Assembly: GCF_014268755.2 (NCBI RefSeq)
Contig: NZ_CP077093.1
Coordinates: 5,546,501 to 5,610,500, forward strand
DNA from: Pseudomonas vanderleydeniana
GTDB taxonomy: Bacteria > Pseudomonadota > Gammaproteobacteria > Pseudomonadales > Pseudomonadaceae
DNA length: 64,000 nt
Direction: 5' to 3'
The translations under genes and the position numbers were made by a program. The notes beneath the pieces were generated by a model. The model saw only the letters and a program-made list of their open reading frames with translations. It did not search any database and was not told where the DNA came from. Positions 18,977-49,876 of the stretch are shown one piece after another (position 1 is the first letter of the stretch; every line of letters starts with the position of its first letter).

Positions 18977-21571
18977 TCAGCGTGCGCTCGCCGACTGGAG
19001 GAAGTCCTGCGCAAAACGCTGCAGCACACCGCCCGCCTCGTAGATCGAGACCTCTTCGGCGGTATCCAGCCTGCAGGTCACTGGCACCTCGACACGCTCG
19101 CCGTCCCTGCGCCGGATGACCAGGGTCAGGGTCGCCCGCGGCGTACGCTCGCCGATCACGTCGAACGTCTCGGTGCCGTCGATGCCAAGGGTCTTGCGAT
19201 CGGTGCCCGGCTTGAACTCCAGCGGCAACACGCCCATGCCGACCAGGTTGGTCCGGTGGATGCGCTCGAAGCCTTCGGCGACGATCGCCTCGACCCCCGC
19301 CAGCCGGACGCCCTTGGCCGCCCAGTCACGGGACGAACCCTGGCCGTAGTCGGCGCCGGCGATGATGATCAAGGACTGCTTGCGGTCCATGTAGGTCTCG
19401 ATGGCTTCCCACATGCGCATGACCTGGCCTTCCGGCTCGACCCGCGCCAGGGAGCCCTGCTTGACCTTGCCGTTCTCCTGAACCATTTCGTTGAACAGTT
19501 TCGGGTTGGCGAACGTCGCGCGCTGGGCAGTGAGGTGGTCGCCGCGGTGGGTGGCGTAGGAGTTGAAGTCCTCCTCCGGCAGGCCCATTTTCGCCAGGTA
19601 CTCACCGGCCGCACTGTCCAGCAGGATAGCGTTGGACGGCGACAGGTGATCGGTGGTGATGTTGTCCGGCAGCACCGCCAGCGGGCGCATGCCCTTGAGC
19701 GGTCGGGCCCCGGCCAGGGCGCCTTCCCAGTACGGCGGACGACGGATATAGGTGCTCATCGGCCGCCAGTCATAGAGCGGCTCGACCTTCGGACCGTTGT
19801 CCTCGTGAATGGCGAACATCGGCGTATAGACCTTGCGGAACTGCTCCGGCTTGACCGAAGCCTTGACCATTGCATCGATTTCCTCGTCGCTCGGCCAGAT
19901 GTCCTTGAGGCGGATTTCCTGGCCGTCGGCATCGCGCCCCAGCACGTCCTTCTCGATATCGAAACGGATGGTCCCGGCAATCGCGTAGGCCACCACCAGC
20001 GGCGGTGACGCCAGGAATGCCTGCTTGGCGTACGGATGGATACGCCCGTCGAAGTTGCGGTTACCGGAGAGCACCGCCGTGGCGTAGAGGTCACGATCGA
20101 TGATTTCCTGCTGGATCACCGGGTCCAGCGCGCCGGACATGCCGTTGCAGGTGGTGCAGGCGAAGGCCACCACGCCAAAGCCCAGTTGCTCCAGTTCCTG
20201 GGTCAAGCCGGCTTCATCCAGGTACAGCGCAACCGCCCGGGAGCCCGGCGCCAGCGACGACTTGACCCACGGCTTGCGGGTCAGGCCCAGCCTGTTGGCG
20301 TTGCGCGCCAGCAGGCCGGCGGCGATGACGTTGCGCGGGTTGCTGGTGTTGGTGCAACTGGTGATGGCGGCGATGATCACCGCGCCGTCGGGCATCTGCC
20401 CCGGCACTTCGCTCCACTGCCCGGCGATGCCCTTGGCCGCCAGGTCGCTGGTGGCGACGCGGGCATGCGGGTTGCTGGGGCCGGCCATGTTGCGCACCAC
20501 CGAAGACAGGTCGAACTGCAGGCCGCGCTCGTACTGCACGCCCTGGAGGCTGTCGGCCCACAGGCCACTCTCGCGGGCGTAGGTTTCGACCAGTTGCACC
20601 TGCGCATCCTCACGACCGGTGAGCTTCAGGTAGTCGATGGTCTGCTGGTCGATGTAGAACATCGCCGCCGTGGCGCCGTACTCCGGGGCCATGTTGGAGA
20701 TAGTCGCACGGTCGCCCAGGGTCAGCGCACTGGCGCCTTCGCCGAAGAACTCCAGGTAGGCCCCGACCACCTTCTGCTTGCGCAGGAACTCGGTCAGCGC
20801 CAGCACCATGTCGGTAGCGGTGATACCCGGTTGCAACTTGCCGGTCAGCTCGACGCCAACGATCTCCGGCAGGCGCATCCAGGAAGCACGACCCAGCATC
20901 ACGCTCTCGGCTTCCAGGCCGCCGACACCGATGGCGATCACGCCCAGCGCATCGACGTGCGGGGTGTGGCTGTCGGTACCGACGCAGGTATCGGGGAAGG
21001 CCACGCCGTCACGCGCCTGGATCACCGGGGACATCTTCTCCAGGTTGATCTGGTGCATGATGCCGTTGCCCGGCGGGATCACGTCGACGTTCTTGAACGC
21101 CTTCTTGGTCCAGTCGATGAAGTGGAAACGATCCTCGTTGCGACGGTCCTCGATGGCGCGGTTCTTGGCGAACGCATCCGGATCGAAACCACCGCATTCC
21201 ACCGCCAGCGAGTGGTCGACGATCAGTTGGGTCGGTACCACCGGGTTGACCTGGGCCGGATCACCGCCCTGGGAGGCAATGGCATCCCGCAGGCCGGCCA
21301 GGTCGACCAGCGCGGTCTGGCCGAGGATGTCGTGGCAGACCACGCGGGCCGGGAACCAGGGAAAATCCAGGTCGCGCTTGCGTTCGATCAGTTGCTTGAG
21401 GGAGTCGGTCAGCGTCGCCGGCTCGCAGCGCCGCACCAGGTTCTCAGCCAGGACGCGGGAGGTGTAGGGCAGCGTGGCGTAGGCCCCGGGCTGGATCGCA
21501 TCGACCGCCGCACGGGCATCGAAGAAGTCCAGGTGACTGCCGGGCAACGGTTTACGGTATTGGGTATTCAT
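18977..21571 (-). CDS. acnD: AcnD, Fe/S-dependent 2-methylcitrate dehydratase
   Basis: An 864-residue aconitase-like enzyme converting 2-methylcitrate to 2-methylaconitate. The [4Fe-4S] cysteines are visible in AAITSCTNTSNPRNVIA (near residue 425) and VAFACTTCNGMSGALDP (near 490). The substrate-binding swivel domain includes GADYGQGSSRDWAAKGVRLA near residue 775. In AcnD-type organisms this enzyme plus PrpF replaces PrpD. ATG 21571 (MNTQYRKPLPGSHLDFFDAR) is the family start; the upstream frame to 21610 lacks support. It lies between prpC and prpF, separated from prpC by a REP pair. Confidence 0.96.
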   Translation of the reverse strand: MNTQYRKPLPGSHLDFFDARAAVDAIQPGAYATLPYTSRVLAENLVRRCEPATLTDSLKQLIERKRDLDFPWFPARVVCHDILGQTALVDLAGLRDAIASQGGDPAQVNPVVPTQLIVDHSLAVECGGFDPDAFAKNRAIEDRRNEDRFHFIDWTKKAFKNVDVIPPGNGIMHQINLEKMSPVIQARDGVAFPDTCVGTDSHTPHVDALGVIAIGVGGLEAESVMLGRASWMRLPEIVGVELTGKLQPGITATDMVLALTEFLRKQKVVGAYLEFFGEGASALTLGDRATISNMAPEYGATAAMFYIDQQTIDYLKLTGREDAQVQLVETYARESGLWADSLQGVQYERGLQFDLSSVVRNMAGPSNPHARVATSDLAAKGIAGQWSEVPGQMPDGAVIIAAITSCTNTSNPRNVIAAGLLARNANRLGLTRKPWVKSSLAPGSRAVALYLDEAGLTQELEQLGFGVVAFACTTCNGMSGALDPVIQQEIIDRDLYATAVLSGNRNFDGRIHPYAKQAFLASPPLVVAYAIAGTIRFDIEKDVLGRDADGQEIRLKDIWPSDEEIDAMVKASVKPEQFRKVYTPMFAIHEDNGPKVEPLYDWRPMSTYIRRPPYWEGALAGARPLKGMRPLAVLPDNITTDHLSPSNAILLDSAAGEYLAKMGLPEEDFNSYATHRGDHLTAQRATFANPKLFNEMVQENGKVKQGSLARVEPEGQVMRMWEAIETYMDRKQSLIIIAGADYGQGSSRDWAAKGVRLAGVEAIVAEGFERIHRTNLVGMGVLPLEFKPGTDRKTLGIDGTETFDVIGERTPRATLTLVIRRRDGERVEVPVTCRLDTAEEVSIYEAGGVLQRFAQDFLQSASAR

Positions 21572-21650
21572 GGTCTGGGACTCGATCACGGTTAAGTCAG
21601 AAGCAAACACGGGCCGGCAGGGAGTTATCGGGTGAGCTTGAGGCCCCTTT

Positions 21651-21742
21651 CGCGGATAAATCCGGCTCCCACAGGGCGCATGCGTCGAACACAGATTTCA
21701 GGCCTGCCTCAAACCTGTGGGAGCCGGATTTATCCGCGAACA
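21651..21742. repeat. Inverted REP pair (REPIN), family 1
   Basis: TTCGCGGATAAATCCGGCTC begins at 21651 and its inverse ends at 21742, between prpC and acnD. The arms match the copies at 28033 and 49789. Confidence 0.9.
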
Positions 21743-21773
21743 GGGCCCGCGCCCGACTCCCACGGCCAAGGCC

Positions 21774-22901
21774 TCAGCGACGCTCGATTGGCACGAACTT
21801 GCGCTGCTCGACGCCGGTGTACTCGGCGCTCGGACGGATGATGCGGTTGTTGGCACGCTGCTCGAACACATGCGCCGCCCAGCCGGTCAGGCGCGAGCAG
21901 ACGAAGATCGGCGTGAACAGCTTGGTCGGGATACCCATGAAGTGGTACGCCGAGGCATGGTAGAAGTCGGCGTTGGGGAACAGTTTCTTCTGTTCCCACA
22001 TGGTCTTGTCGATCGCCTCGGACACCGGGAACAGCACGCTGTCACCGACTTCATCGGCGAGCTGCTTCGACCAACCCTTGATCACCTCGTTGCGCGGGTC
22101 GCTGTCCTTGTAGATCGCATGGCCGAAGCCCATGATCTTGTCCTTGCGCGCCAGCATGCCGAGGGTGCCCTCGATGGCCTCCTGGGCCGAACCATAGCGC
22201 TCGATCATCTCCATCGCCGCCTCGTTGGCACCGCCGTGCAGCGGGCCGCGCAGCGAACCGATGGCTGCGGTGACGCAGGAGAACAGGTCGGACAGGGTCG
22301 AGGCACAGACCCGTGCGGTAAAGGTCGAGGCGTTGAACTCGTGCTCCGCATAGAGGATCAGCGACACGTCCATCACCTTGCGATGCAGCTCGCTCGGCGC
22401 CTTGCCGTGCAGCAGGTGCAGGAAATGCCCGCCAAGGGACGCCTCGTCGGTCACGCAGTCGATACGCTTGCCTTCATGGCTGAAGCGATACCAGTAGCAC
22501 ATGATCGCCGGGAAGGCGGCCAGCAGGCGGTCGGTGGCTTCGTGCTGGCGGGAGAAGTCGCCCTCCGGCTCGATGTTGCCCAGGAACGAGCAGCCGGTGC
22601 GCATCACGTCCATCGGGTGGGCATCGGCCGGTATGCGCTCGAGCACCTCTTTCAGCGCCTGGGGCAGGTCGCGCAGGGTGCGCAGCTTGCCCATGTAGGC
22701 CGCCAGCTCGGTGGCGTTGGGCAGCTCGCCGTACAGCAGCAGGTAGGCGACCTCCTCGAAGCGCGCCTCGGCCGCCAGCTCACGCACGTCATAACCACGA
22801 TAGGTCAGACCGGCACCAGCCTGGCCCACGGTGGACAGGGCGGTTTGTCCGGCGACCTGGCCACGCAGGCCGGCACCGCTCAGTACTTTTGCTTCAGCCA
22901 T
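21774..22901 (-). CDS. prpC: 2-methylcitrate synthase
   Basis: A 375-residue citrate-synthase-family enzyme condensing propionyl-CoA with oxaloacetate. Active-site regions are GSLRGPLHGGANEAAMEM (His) and MGFGHAIYKDSDPRNEVIK (His/Arg). The C-terminal AAHVFEQRANNRIIRPSAEY is typical of PrpC. GGAGAG precedes ATG 22901; a TTG at 22913 is rejected. Second enzyme gene of the prp operon, after prpB. Confidence 0.96.
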   Translation of the reverse strand: MAEAKVLSGAGLRGQVAGQTALSTVGQAGAGLTYRGYDVRELAAEARFEEVAYLLLYGELPNATELAAYMGKLRTLRDLPQALKEVLERIPADAHPMDVMRTGCSFLGNIEPEGDFSRQHEATDRLLAAFPAIMCYWYRFSHEGKRIDCVTDEASLGGHFLHLLHGKAPSELHRKVMDVSLILYAEHEFNASTFTARVCASTLSDLFSCVTAAIGSLRGPLHGGANEAAMEMIERYGSAQEAIEGTLGMLARKDKIMGFGHAIYKDSDPRNEVIKGWSKQLADEVGDSVLFPVSEAIDKTMWEQKKLFPNADFYHASAYHFMGIPTKLFTPIFVCSRLTGWAAHVFEQRANNRIIRPSAEYTGVEQRKFVPIERR

Positions 22902-22970
22902 TGCTCTCTCCAAATTCTTGTAGGTTGTCGGGGATCGGCAATTCGATCACTCAGGCTATTCAATTTTTCT

Positions 22971-23050
22971 GTGGGAGCCGGCTTGCTGGCGATGATATCG
23001 ACGCGATGCCCATGATCCACCGCGTCGCCTGGATCGCCAGCAAGCCGGCG
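22971..23050. repeat. Inverted REP pair, family 2
   Basis: GTGGGAGCCGGCTTGCTGG starts at 22971 and is answered by CCAGCAAGCCGGCGCC ending near 23050. It lies between prpB and prpC. The core GGCTTGCTGGCGAT differs from the family 1 core. Confidence 0.85.
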
Positions 23051-23057
23051 CCTGGCT

Positions 23058-23957
23058 TCAGCCCTTCTTCTGGGCGAACAACGCATCGAGCTTCTGCTCG
23101 AAGGCGTGGTAGTCGATGCGATCGTAGAGCTCCATGCGGGTCTGCATGGTGTCGATCACGTTCTGCTGGGTGCCATCGCGACGAATCGCGGTGTAGACGT
23201 TTTCCGCCGCCTTGTTCATGGCGCGGAACGCCGACAGCGGGTACAGCACCAGCGATACGTCGACGGATGCCAGCTGTTCGGTGGTGTACAGCGGCGTCGC
23301 GCCGAACTCGGTGATATTGGCCAGGATCGGCGCCTTCACCCGGTTGGCGAACAGCTTGTACATCTCCAGTTCGGTGATGGCTTCCGGGAAAATCATGTCG
23401 GCACCGGCCTCGATGCAGGCCGCTGCGCGGTCCAGCGCGGCTTCCAGGCCTTCGACCGCCAGCGCGTCGGTGCGCGCCATGATCACGAAGCTGTCGTCGA
23501 GGCGCGCGTCAACGGCCGCCTTGATGCGATCGACCATTTCCTGCTGGGAAACGATTTCCTTGTTCGGCCGGTGGCCGCAGCGCTTGGCCCCGACCTGGTC
23601 CTCGATATGGATCGCCGCCGCGCCGAACTTGCTCATCGAGCGCACGGTACGCGCGACGTTGAAGGCCGAGGAACCGAAACCGGTGTCGACATCCACCAAC
23701 AGCGGCAGGTCGCAGACATCGGTGATGCGTCGCACGTCGGTCAGCACGTCATCCAGGCCGGAGATGCCCAGGTCAGGCAGGCCGAGGGAGCCGGCCGCGA
23801 CCCCGCCACCCGACAGGTAGATCGCCTTGAAACCGGCGCGCTTGGCCAGCAGGGCGTGGTTGGCGTTGATCGTGCCGACCACCTGCAGTGGATGCTCGCT
23901 GGCGACCGCATCGCGGAAACGCTGACCGGGCGTGTTTTTGTTGGAACCCTGACTCAT
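23058..23957 (-). CDS. prpB: 2-methylisocitrate lyase
   Basis: A 299-residue PEP-mutase/isocitrate-lyase superfamily enzyme splitting 2-methylisocitrate to succinate and pyruvate. The active-site loop [18 protein letters not shown] contains the catalytic Cys near residue 127. Metal-binding residues sit in [20 protein letters not shown] and [13 protein letters not shown]. Its start overlaps the gntR stop by four bases (ATGA), so the regulator and first enzyme are translationally coupled. Confidence 0.97.
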
Positions 23958-24676
23958 GACTCACCTCGTGGAGTGGCTGTCGGTTTGGCGCCGTCCTGGT
24001 AGTGACGCGCAATATTGCGTTTCGAGGCGCCGATGTGACGGCGCATCAGCAGTTCGGCCAGTTCACCATCACGATCGGCAATCGCATCGAGAATCCGATG
24101 GTGCTCGGCAAAGGCCTGGCGTGGCCGGTTGGGGGTCGCGGAAAACTGGATGCGGTACATGCGCACGAGCTGGTAGAGCTCGCCGCAGAGCATCTGGGTC
24201 AGGGTGCGGTTGCCGGCCCCCTGGATAATCCGGTAGTGGAAGTCGAAATCGCCTTCCTGCTGGTAGTAGCCGACACCCGCCTGGAACGCCGCATCGCGTT
24301 CGTGGGTATGCAGCACCTGGCGCAGTTCCTCGATCTCTTCGCGGGTCATGCGCTCGGCGGCAAGACGGCAGGCCATGCCCTCCAGGGACTCGCGGATCTC
24401 ATAGAGTTCGATCAGTTCGGCATGGCTGAGCGAAACCACCCGCGCCCCGACATGAGGCACCCGCACCAACAGGCGCTGCCCTTCCAGGCGGTGGATGGCC
24501 TCGCGCAGCGGGCCACGGCTGATACCGTAGGTGCGTGCCAGTTCCGGCTCGGAAATCTTGCTGCCCGGAGCGATCTCGCCCTTCACGATGGCAGCCTGGA
24601 TGCGCCGGAAGACGTTCTCGGAAAGCGTTTCCGAATCTTCCTGGGGAGCGGCCAGCGACTCCAGATTTTCCAGCAT
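23954..24676 (-). CDS. GntR/FCD-family regulator of the 2-methylcitrate operon
   Basis: A 240-residue cytoplasmic regulator. The N-terminal winged HTH (about residues 20-85) shows [20 protein letters not shown] and [20 protein letters not shown]. The C-terminal FCD ligand domain (about 95-220) has the metal-binding histidines in [13 protein letters not shown] and [13 protein letters not shown]. It is first in the prp operon and probably represses it, with 2-methylcitrate or a related acid as inducer. GAAGGTG upstream supports ATG 24676; the frame to 24718 is rejected. Palindromic candidate operators lie at 24749-24762 and across the start codon. Confidence 0.9.
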
Positions 24677-24686
24677 ATTGTCGACA
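24676..24686 (-). promoter_or_regulatory. Second partial GntR operator across the start codon
   Basis: TATTGTCGACA here repeats eleven of the fourteen bases of the palindrome at 24749-24762. Its position overlaps the gntR start codon, suggesting a second, weaker binding site for autoregulation. Confidence 0.4.
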
Positions 24687-24748
24687 CCTTCAAAATCAAT
24701 GACGGTAAAACTAGCCAATCAGACCAGCACAGTCAAAGAATTAATCGA

Positions 24749-24945: not shown

Positions 24946-25485
24946 ATGAGACTCAAGCCCTTCCCTCTACTGCTCTTGCTTCTTTTCTGCCTGCCAGGCC
25001 TCGCCAGCGCGGCGGGAAAGACCGTGTACGGCCTGAACGAGTACGCGACCCTGGACGGTATCGACCTGGAAGTCGCGGCCAAGCTCGACACCGGTGCCAA
25101 GACGGCCTCCCTGAGTGCCCGTGACATCAAGCGTTTCAAGCGTAACGGTGAAAGCTGGGTACGTTTCTACCTGGCCATCGATACGGCGCATTCACACCCC
25201 ATCGAACTGCCGTTGGCACGGGTCAGCAAGATCAAGCGCCGCTCCGGCGACTACGACCCGGACGAGGACAAGGCTTACACCGCCCGCCCGGTGATCACCC
25301 TGAATGTCTGCATGGGCAGCGCCCTGCGCACCATCGAAGTGAACTTGACCGACCGAAGTGCTTTCCAATACCCGCTCCTGATTGGCTCCGAGGCGCTCAA
25401 GCGCTTCGATGCGCTGGTAGACCCCAGCCTTAAATACGCTGCCGGCAAGCCCGCCTGCATCGCCGACGCTCAAACCGCCGAGTAA
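24946..25485 (+). CDS. Exported retropepsin-like protease (former ATP-dependent zinc protease family)
   Basis: A 179-residue protein with a Sec signal peptide (MRLKPFPLLLLLLFCLPGLA, cleavage near residue 22), so periplasmic. The core shows KLDTGAKTASLSA (DTGA at residues 48-51), the catalytic motif of retropepsin-type aspartic proteases, and LLIGSEALKRFDALVDPSLK near the C-terminus. Pfam has called this family a putative ATP-dependent zinc protease (RimK-associated). I see no HExxH zinc motif; the DTGA motif favours an aspartic mechanism. First of three closely spaced genes with a membrane transglutaminase-like protein and an ATP-grasp ligase. ATG 24946 has CCAGGA upstream; the frame from 24904 would bury the signal peptide. 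Confidence 0.85.
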   Translation: MRLKPFPLLLLLLFCLPGLASAAGKTVYGLNEYATLDGIDLEVAAKLDTGAKTASLSARDIKRFKRNGESWVRFYLAIDTAHSHPIELPLARVSKIKRRSGDYDPDEDKAYTARPVITLNVCMGSALRTIEVNLTDRSAFQYPLLIGSEALKRFDALVDPSLKYAAGKPACIADAQTAE

Positions 25486-25490
25486 TTCGC

Positions 25491-27023
25491 ATGCGTTCTC
25501 TTACCCTCCATCTGAAAGTCCTGATCGCCATCCTGGTGGTGCTCGGTATTTCGGTCACGGCCTATCAGATTTTCGTCCTGGGGATTCCGGTCACCGAAGA
25601 TGCCACCGACGACCTGTGGAACATCGACGCCAAGGTCGAGTTCGTCGCCGCCAGCAAGGACCCGGTGAAGATCCAGATGTTCGTGCCGCCGCTGAGCCGT
25701 GACTACGTGAGCCTCAACGAGAGCTTCATCTCCAACAACTACGGGGTCAGCGTCAACCGTGCCGATGGCAATCGCAAGGTCACCTGGTCGGCCCGGCGGG
25801 TCAGCGGCAAGCAGACGCTCTACTATCGCCTGGTGCTGACCAAGCGCTATACCGGCGAAAAACCCAAGGTCAAGGGCCCGACCTTCCGTGACAGCATGGC
25901 CATCGAAGGCCCGGAAAAAATCGCTGCCGAAGCACTGATGGCGCCCATCCGCCAGCACTCGGCCGACGTCGAGACCTTCATCAGCGAAACCATCAAGCGC
26001 GTCAACAACCTGGGCGACGACAACGTCAAGCTGCTGCTGGCCGGCGATCCATCGACCCCGCACAAGGCACAGATCATCGAACTGCTGCTGTCGATTGCCC
26101 ACGTACCGCTGGAAAAGGTCCACACCATCCGCCTGGTCGCCGACCAGCCGCAAACCCCGGAACTCTGGCTGCGCAGTTTCAACGGCAACGACTGGCTGTA
26201 CTTCAACCCGGACACCGGCGAACAGGGCCTGCCTGAAGACCGCCTGGTCTGGTGGACCGGCGACGACAACCTGATCACCGTCGAGGGCGGCAAGAAGGCC
26301 AGCGTCAACTTCAGCCTGAACAACAGCGAGATGAACGCCATCCGCCTGGCCAAGCTGACCGACGAGAACTCCGACGCCAACTTCCTCGAATACTCGCTCT
26401 ACGGCCTGCCGCTGCAGACCCAGCAGACCTTCATGATCATGGTGATGATCCCGATCGGCGTGCTGGTGATCCTGATCCTGCGCAACCTGATCGGCCTGCA
26501 GACCCTCGGCACCTTCACCCCGGTCCTGATCGCCCTGGCCTTTCGCGAGACCCAGCTGGGCTTCGGCATCGTGCTGTTCACCATCATCACCGCGCTCGGC
26601 CTGTCGCTACGCTCCTACCTGGAACACCTGAAGCTGCAGATGCTGCCGCGATTGTCGGTGGTGCTGACCTTCGTTGTGGTGCTGATCGCCGCCATCAGCC
26701 TGTTCAGCCACAAGCTCGGCCTGGAGCGCGGCCTCTCGGTCGCGTTGTTCCCGATGGTGATCCTGACCATGACCATCGAGCGCCTGTCCATCACCTGGGA
26801 GGAACGCGGCGGCGGCCATGCGATGAAAGTCGCGATCGGCACCCTGTTCGCCGCCTCGCTGGCACATCTGATCATGAGCGTGCCGGAACTGGTGTACTTC
26901 GTCTTCACCTTCCCGGCGATCCTGCTGATCCTGGTGGGCTTCATGCTGGCCATGGGACGCTATCGCGGCTACCGCCTGACCGAACTGGTGCGTTTCAAGG
27001 CCTTTCTCAAGGAAGACGCCTGA
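25491..27023 (+). CDS. Inactive transglutaminase-like domain fused to multiple transmembrane helices
   Basis: A 510-residue inner-membrane protein. One N-terminal helix (about residues 9-29) is followed by a large periplasmic domain to about residue 305. The C-terminal half has about seven hydrophobic segments (from TFMIMVMIPIGVLVILILRN to FTFPAILLILVGFMLAMG). The periplasmic part resembles a transglutaminase fold (GDPSTPHKAQIIELLLSIAH, then LYFNPDTGEQGLP), but no cysteine is present at the expected nucleophile position, so it is probably non-catalytic. It sits 5 bp after the protease gene and overlaps the ATP-grasp gene by one base (TGATG). It may act as scaffold or transporter between periplasmic protease and cytosolic ligase; this is inference. 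Confidence 0.87.
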   Translation: MRSLTLHLKVLIAILVVLGISVTAYQIFVLGIPVTEDATDDLWNIDAKVEFVAASKDPVKIQMFVPPLSRDYVSLNESFISNNYGVSVNRADGNRKVTWSARRVSGKQTLYYRLVLTKRYTGEKPKVKGPTFRDSMAIEGPEKIAAEALMAPIRQHSADVETFISETIKRVNNLGDDNVKLLLAGDPSTPHKAQIIELLLSIAHVPLEKVHTIRLVADQPQTPELWLRSFNGNDWLYFNPDTGEQGLPEDRLVWWTGDDNLITVEGGKKASVNFSLNNSEMNAIRLAKLTDENSDANFLEYSLYGLPLQTQQTFMIMVMIPIGVLVILILRNLIGLQTLGTFTPVLIALAFRETQLGFGIVLFTIITALGLSLRSYLEHLKLQMLPRLSVVLTFVVVLIAAISLFSHKLGLERGLSVALFPMVILTMTIERLSITWEERGGGHAMKVAIGTLFAASLAHLIMSVPELVYFVFTFPAILLILVGFMLAMGRYRGYRLTELVRFKAFLKEDA

Positions 27024-28009
27024 TGTTCGGCCTGTGGAAAACCTGGAAGGCCCTGGAGGCCAAGGGCATCATGGGCATCAACCGGCGTAACGCCGACTAT
27101 GTGCTCAAGTACAACAAGCGCAGCCTGTACCCGATCGTCGATGACAAGATCATCACCAAGGAACGGGCAATCGCCGCCGGCATCCACGTGCCGGAAATGT
27201 ATGGCGTGATCTCCACCGAAAAGGACATCGACAAGCTCGACGAAATCATCGGCGGGCGCAGCGACTTCGTCATCAAGCCGGCCCAGGGTGCCGGTGGCGA
27301 CGGCATCCTGGTGATCGCCGACCGTTTCGAAGGGCGCTACCGGACCGTTTCCGGACGGATCATCAGCCATGAGGAAATCGAGCACCAGGTGTCCAGCATC
27401 CTCACCGGGCTCTATTCCCTGGGCGGCCATCGCGACCGCGCGCTGATCGAATACCGGGTGACCCCCGACCAGATCTTCAGGAGCATCAGCTATGAGGGCG
27501 TGCCGGACATCCGCATCATCGTGCTGATGGGCTACCCGGTCATGGCCATGCTGCGCCTGCCGACCCGCCAGTCCAACGGCAAGGCCAACCTGCACCAGGG
27601 CGCCATCGGCGTCGGTGTCGACCTGGCGACTGGCCTGACCCTGCGCGGTACCTGGCTGAACAACATCATCAGCAAGCACCCTGACACCACCAACGCGGTG
27701 GACGGTGTGCAACTGCCAAACTGGGACGGCTTCATGAAGCTCGCCGCCGGCTGCTACGAGCTGTGTGGCCTGGGCTACATCGGCGTGGACATGGTGCTGG
27801 ACCAGGACAAGGGCCCATTGATCCTCGAGCTCAACGCCCGCCCCGGACTGAACATCCAGATCGCCAATGATTGCGGCCTGACCACCCGGGCCCAGGCGGT
27901 GGAAGCGCACCTGGAAGAGCTGGCAGCGGCCGGCCTCAGCGAAACCGCGGAGGAGCGGGTGCGTTTCGTCCAAGGTCTGTTCGGCCATGTAGCTCCACGG
28001 AATGCCTGA
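27023..28009 (+). CDS. ATP-grasp ligase, alpha-L-glutamate ligase-like (RimK-related)
   Basis: A 328-residue cytosolic enzyme. The glycine-rich ATP loop is FVIKPAQGAGGDGILVI near residue 92. Mg-binding residues lie in GYIGVDMVLDQDKGPLILEL followed by NARPGLNIQIAN. Such enzymes form amide or peptide bonds using ATP. RimK adds glutamate to ribosomal protein S6, but this branch occurs with the exported protease and membrane protein seen upstream, and its real product is not known to me. Start overlaps the previous stop (TGATG). Confidence 0.87.
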   Translation: MFGLWKTWKALEAKGIMGINRRNADYVLKYNKRSLYPIVDDKIITKERAIAAGIHVPEMYGVISTEKDIDKLDEIIGGRSDFVIKPAQGAGGDGILVIADRFEGRYRTVSGRIISHEEIEHQVSSILTGLYSLGGHRDRALIEYRVTPDQIFRSISYEGVPDIRIIVLMGYPVMAMLRLPTRQSNGKANLHQGAIGVGVDLATGLTLRGTWLNNIISKHPDTTNAVDGVQLPNWDGFMKLAAGCYELCGLGYIGVDMVLDQDKGPLILELNARPGLNIQIANDCGLTTRAQAVEAHLEELAAAGLSETAEERVRFVQGLFGHVAPRNA

Positions 28010-28032: not shown

Positions 28033-28120
28033 GTGGGAGCCGGATTTATCCGCGAACCAGACGACGCGGCGGTACAGGATTACCGTGTTATCGTTCTTCG
28101 CGGATAAATCCGGCTCCCAC
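28033..28120. repeat. Inverted REP pair (REPIN), family 1
   Basis: GTGGGAGCCGGATTTATCC starts at 28033 and its inverse ends at 28120, after the ATP-grasp gene and before pabB. Confidence 0.9.
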
Positions 28121-49788: not shown

Positions 49789-49876
49789 GTGGGAGCCGGA
49801 TTTATCCGCGAAGAACGATAACGAGGTCTTCCAGAAGAGACGTGTTACCTTCTTCGCGGATAAATCCGGCTCCCAC
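49789..49876. repeat. Inverted REP pair (REPIN), family 1
   Basis: GTGGGAGCCGGATTTATCC starts at 49789 and its inverse ends at 49876. It lies between convergent genes and can serve as a bidirectional transcript end. Confidence 0.9.

Follow-up and report, generated by a model that had tools for sequence, protein, structure and literature searches.

The three genes at positions 24946 to 28009 of the window (the whole stretch of 64,000 nucleotides that was analyzed) are almost certainly the rloABC operon of a Pseudomonas. This operon is not new, as it has already been described and named in P. aeruginosa (mBio 2025, PMC12239564). On balance, we lean modestly towards a mechanism in which the ligase RloC makes poly-alpha-glutamate, the membrane protein RloB passes it across the inner membrane, and the protease RloA trims it. 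Somewhat more tentatively, we suggest that RloB and RloC are the core of two-subunit machines that synthesize polyglutamate (or a similar polyamide) and export it across the inner membrane, and of which there would be two builds: one periplasmic and closed by RloA, the other secreting, in which RloB would be an active transglutaminase and a TPR protein and an outer-membrane barrel would provide the exit.

The rlo locus and its published counterpart

The locus resides in a 7.03-Mb genome consisting of a single contig. Its features are as follows.

24946..25485, + strand: rloA, exported retropepsin-like aspartic peptidase RloA, 179 aa (NF052262, 342.1 bits)
24946..25011, + strand: RloA leader, residues 1-22, a likely signal peptide; hydrophobic, ending in Ala-Ser-Ala (20-22), read by eye
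25087..25098, + strand: DTGA active-site motif of RloA, residues 48-51, numbered from the ATG at 24946
25491..27023, + strand: rloB, inactive transglutaminase domain and multi-helix membrane domain, 510 aa (NF052267, 1074.7 bits; PF14400 and PF14402)
25608..26336, + strand: RloB periplasmic transglutaminase-like fold, residues 40-282; triad positions are T189, E224 and N239
26337..27020, + strand: RloB membrane domain, residues 283-510; domain model pLDDT 77.0
27023..28009, + strand: rloC, ATP-grasp ligase of the alpha-L-glutamate ligase-like family, 328 aa (TIGR02291, 573.1 bits)

The 193-aa reading frame at rloA differs only in its longer, in-frame TTG start. The close spacing noted in the preliminary description was confirmed on the sequence: 5 bp separate rloA from rloB, and the start of rloC shares one base with the stop of rloB (TGATG). 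A promoter scan upstream of rloA returned no sigma-70-like site. Among related proteins, P0030 (786 aa, 93% identical over RloB) carries RloB and RloC domains in one frame; it may result from a frameshift across the one-base overlap, and we set it aside because a single such event would yield it. Between rloC and the next gene lies a 24-nt perfect inverted repeat (28033-28056 and 28097-28120). This is a dispersed REP-like element, the unit of which recurs 176 times genome-wide when up to 2 mismatches are allowed (0 for the backwards control); it is also present at window positions 21649-21740 and 49789-49876. On the minus strand, at 18977-24718, four genes resemble by eye what we take to be a methylcitrate cluster, presumably encoding aconitase-like, citrate-synthase-like and methylisocitrate-lyase-like proteins and a GntR-type regulator.

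A search of the class for the 7TM family gave 27 matches in 26 of 143 genomes, namely the window, 20 other canonical loci, three loci of a different build (L067, L068 and L072) and L069, L070 and L071. The last of these was dropped (PF14402 E-value 5e-4, no RloB by tblastn), and L069 and L070 were left out of both class counts, as their RloB is divergent and has no RloC next to it. These two (L069:8139-9761 and L070:7447-9072) form a third, very divergent RloB group, and in L070 an RloA relative lies alongside in divergent orientation. In the 20 canonical loci, window excluded, RloA adjoins RloB in all except L064, and RloC adjoins in all except L060, where the contig stops before RloC; a TPR protein or barrel relative is found in none.

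The window operon resembles that of P. aeruginosa in its three genes, their order, and the numbering of the catalytic and glutamate-contacting residues of RloA (PMC12239564). The closest named RloB, at 96% identity, is that of Pseudomonas agarici. NCBIfam offers models of RloA1-3 and of RloB, of which the window proteins match those of RloA1 and RloB above their cut-offs. With such models at hand, the operon named, and two RloA crystal structures and characterized mutants reported (PMC12239564), the earlier view of this locus as poorly described biology does not hold. According to the same account, RloA, RloA2 and RloA3 are redundant in P. aeruginosa, and the triple protease mutant does not grow on low-salt medium, forms poor biofilm, has short and wide cells and shows heightened sensitivity to some beta-lactams (PMC12239564). 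The suspected connection with osmotic or envelope stress is thereby borne out. In contrast to P. aeruginosa, with RloA, RloA2, RloA3 and RimB (PMC12239564), the genome of the window encodes three PF05618 proteins: the window RloA, RloA2 (L003; 305.1 bits, cut-off 250) and a separately encoded RimB (L001; 288.7 bits, cut-off 200). No RloA3, and hence no third secreted protease, was found among these three matches. As a side lead, insertions are recorded in all three rlo genes.

RloA, RloC and polyglutamate

The window RloA scores well above the cut-off of the RloA1 model (342.1 against 280 bits for NF052262) and matches PF05618 (155.1 bits) as well as the PDB entries 9g58 (300.6 bits), 9g59 and 2pma. 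It is distinct from RimB, whose model it matches with 80.1 bits, below the cut-off of 200, and it also has a leader. The assignment as a retropepsin and not a zinc enzyme stands: DTGA occupies residues 48-51, inspection of the sequence by eye revealed no HExxH motif, and Asp48 is catalytic (PMC12239564). The cysteines of RloA are at positions 122 and 171. All nine residues reported as catalytic or glutamate-contacting in P. aeruginosa, namely K46, D48, R92, K95, K97, R99, K109, R114 and R137, are present with the published numbering (PMC12239564). The mutation of Asp48 that had been suggested as a check is already in print, with the predicted outcome: D48A does not complement, and R114A and R137A likewise fail in vivo (PMC12239564).

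In vitro, P. aeruginosa RloA cleaves 8E and 10E, and not 6E or shorter chains; R114A and R137A, designed to disturb glutamate binding, also weaken cleavage (PMC12239564). The product of the pathway is thus less unclear than the preliminary description stated. RloA also cuts glutamates off the C-terminus of RpsF in vitro (PMC12239564), and the pairing of a retropepsin with an ATP-grasp glutamate ligase, along with the polyglutamate chemistry, is shared with RimB-RimK (PMC11957791, PMC10092738). By analogy with RimK and RimB acting on RpsF, RloB and RloC might attach glutamate chains to a membrane or periplasmic acceptor, be it a protein, a lipid or a wall precursor, and RloA might remove them, in the manner of a reversible envelope tag. 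The authors of the P. aeruginosa study list this option (PMC12239564), and in a sister operon described below RloB has an intact transglutaminase triad that could attach chains. However, with the ligase in the cytoplasm and RloA in the periplasm, the acceptor or the tag must still cross the membrane, and no acceptor gene is conserved beside the canonical rloABC genes, as counted for five named families. RimB, moreover, is leaderless, cytoplasmic and acts on RpsF, and RimB-RimK has no membrane subunit of the RloB type (PMC11957791, PMC10092738). We regard the tagging scheme as possible, though unlikely.

RloC matches TIGR02291 with 573.1 bits (cut-off 314.2), PF14397 with 327.5 bits, and the RimK family PF08443 with 40.6 bits. 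The ATP-grasp residues K85, R164, D256, E269 and N271 occur in every one of 33 aligned sequences, 18 from canonical loci and 15 from the sister operons. When RloC is aligned to RimK (PDB 5zct), R164 falls on R189 and N271 on N262, although the match is weak (E-value 7e-4). In P. aeruginosa RimK, R189 and N262 touch the last glutamate (PMC10092738), and the pairing assumes that both RimKs share their numbering; the other polyglutamate contacts of RimK, S7, R8, S14 and R64, fall outside the alignment. Because the match is weak and the agreement in numbering assumed, the glutamate specificity of RloC is supported rather than shown. RloC could conceivably join something else, in which case the cleavage of polyglutamate by RloA in vitro would be a side activity. 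The weakness of the RimK match and the Pfam name of the family, sugar-transfer associated ATP-grasp, are consistent with this notion, as is the report that the substrate of RloA in vivo is still unknown (PMC12239564). Nevertheless, R114A and R137A not only weaken cleavage but also fail in vivo, and without rloC the protease phenotype is suppressed (PMC12239564); this explanation is therefore, in our estimate, very improbable.

RloB and the proposed pathway

RloB passes its family model clearly (NF052267, 1074.7 bits, cut-off 900) and was modeled with a pLDDT of 80.2. The lack of a nucleophilic cysteine remarked on in the preliminary description is even more pronounced than claimed, since the window protein has no cysteine at all. 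At the triad positions of canonical RloB, Cys occurs in 0 of 46 aligned sequences and His in 1 of 46. In the membrane domain, R331, R352, R374, R431, E430, E438, R495, E498 and R501 are invariant across a 56-row alignment. A Foldseek search with this domain gave no transporter match under 0.001. Rnf/Nqr proteins were the consistent top rows in VIA-align and were not significant by Foldseek or by profile comparison, the profile comprising the 21 of 30 fetched PF02508 rows that passed a self-consistency filter; we keep a shared fold as a lead.

A kinship of this domain with CapC/PgsC, an idea that arose from the order of motifs, was also considered and is not claimed. Profiles of 23 and then 47 RloB sequences (36 after filtering), compared by hhalign with tandem CapC proteins, gave non-significant probabilities of 0.2-1.3%, against 0.1% for a reversed control, and no CapC match appeared among PDB sequences up to an E-value of 1. 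As for the tandem CapC proteins themselves, with two CapC domains in one chain, 5 of the 299 genomes examined in the phylum encode one, and these 5 belong to a single family (L042-L046). They are about 1080 aa long in four loci, the L046 copy ending at the contig end; in L042 the gene is followed by three encoding proteins with no Pfam match.

In the mechanism towards which we lean, RloC, as a RimK-like ligase, would build poly-alpha-L-glutamate in the cytoplasm; the membrane domain of RloB, rich in invariant arginines, would pass the polymer across the inner membrane, while the dead transglutaminase fold would hold it; and RloA, a dimeric retropepsin that cleaves polyglutamate in vitro (PMC12239564), would cut it in the periplasm. 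Without RloA, a polyanion might accumulate, and this may be why cells fail in low salt, as reported (PMC12239564). The trimmed polymer could, more speculatively, serve as an envelope osmolyte or as a wall-associated polyanion. A comparable division of labor exists in PgsBCA/CapBCA, in which a ligase together with a membrane subunit synthesizes poly-gamma-glutamate and exports it, and another enzyme trims or releases it; there, the ligase is Mur-like and the bond is gamma. If the model holds, the rlo system would work in the same way; the comparison made here concerns only the CapC family, with a probability of 1.3% at best.

Published genetics bears directly on this mechanism. Deletion of rloB or rloC in the triple protease mutant fully restores low-salt growth (PMC12239564), as would follow if RloA has to clear away what RloB and RloC produce. 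The preliminary description was right to place the three proteins in a single pathway that spans three compartments. Several points speak against the mechanism. Mutants lacking only rloB or only rloC are themselves impaired in cell shape and in their response to ampicillin (PMC12239564), so the product is not merely harmful; the RimK match of RloC is weak; the membrane domain of RloB matches no transporter significantly, either by Foldseek or by profiles; the rescue of biofilm, ampicillin sensitivity and shape is only partial (PMC12239564); and the signs for a barrel in the sister operon described below are weak. The earlier reading of the locus as one of synthesis, export and processing is plausible and unproved; the P. 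aeruginosa study itself does not settle what RloA acts on in the cell or what RloB and RloC do (PMC12239564).

A rather improbable alternative is that RloB acts as a sensor instead of a transporter, binding periplasmic glutamate chains and controlling RloC or wall synthesis. Such a role would account for a transglutaminase domain that is dead and yet retained, would suit a membrane domain with no clear transporter match, and has a precedent in the binding roles proposed for dead transglutaminase domains elsewhere (PMC3482391). On the other hand, rloB and rloC deletions rescue alike (PMC12239564), and an outer-membrane module beside the RloB of the sister operon points to passage.

A sister operon with a predicted outer-membrane module

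Three of the class loci differ from the canonical build in that their RloB retains the transglutaminase Cys, His and Asp and that RloA is missing. This type-2 operon, encoding RloB with the triad, RloC, a TPR protein and a predicted barrel, is located at:

L067, 4724-10366
L068, 7765-13392
L072, 2097-7608
also L076 to L097

The one RloB scanned, from L067, matches Transglut_core with 63.7 bits. In all three loci RloC is followed by a protein of 633-667 aa (with 11 TPR stretches in L067) and then by one of 392-401 aa that resembles an outer-membrane barrel. The signs that point to a barrel are weak: leader-like N-termini together with an aromatic final residue in 4 of 6 proteins, and a match of the L067 protein to EpsL, a polysaccharide outer-membrane protein (E-value 5.9e-6, 25.5 bits, cut-off 275); the proteins of two other loci gave no family match.

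Scanning named genomes with the RloB of these three loci yielded 24 type-2 loci, of which L076, L078 and L081 seem to repeat the contigs of L067, L068 and L072, and L098 and L099 are contig-end fragments. They are labelled Gammaproteobacteria, Nitrosomonadales, Desulfobulbaceae, Deltaproteobacteria, Campylobacterales/Helicobacteraceae and Nitrospirota; L079, L084 and L087, named Nitrospirota or Nitrospira, may be mis-binned. RloC follows in all 22 loci whose sequence extends beyond RloB, the TPR protein in all 20 with room for it, and the predicted barrel in 17 of the 18 with room (L095 lacks it; in L097 the contig is cut inside it). A TPR lipoprotein lies upstream in 5 of 24. RloA is absent from all 24 loci, an absence local to the locus: a RimB-like PF05618 protein is encoded elsewhere in genome G101 (131.6 bits, below the RimB cut-off), and in G071 no PF05618 protein was found. 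The Cys-His-Asp triad is intact in 10 of 10 aligned type-2 RloB sequences; the RloC residue count above used 15 of the 22 type-2 proteins.

In a tree of RloB, from which the L090 protein, split over two frames, was excluded, type 2 forms a single clade (100/100; root unplaced). One bin, G033 (86% complete, 6% contaminated), carries both builds (L065 and L072), possibly through contamination. Literature searches returned no description of the type-2 operon, a weak sign that it is new; Iyer et al. 2009 may have predicted the canonical or the type-2 neighborhood.

The RloB-RloC core is thus accompanied by either the RloA protease or the outer-membrane module, the one taking the place of the other. 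This exchange fits a core through which a polymer would reach the periplasm, where we would expect it to be trimmed and kept in one build and secreted in the other; judged from gene content, the type-2 build seems to secrete its product out of the cell. Periplasmic delivery also agrees with the published epistasis, in that the core harms cells that lack the protease (PMC12239564).

The operon has effects in P. aeruginosa on survival in low salt, on biofilm, on cell shape and on sensitivity to beta-lactams (PMC12239564). The sister operon offers a second handle on the product, which in the type-2 build should leave the cell and be findable in the medium. If RloB and RloC do make a periplasmic glutamate polymer, the envelope would have a component of a new kind, with the RloA proteases as its safety valve.
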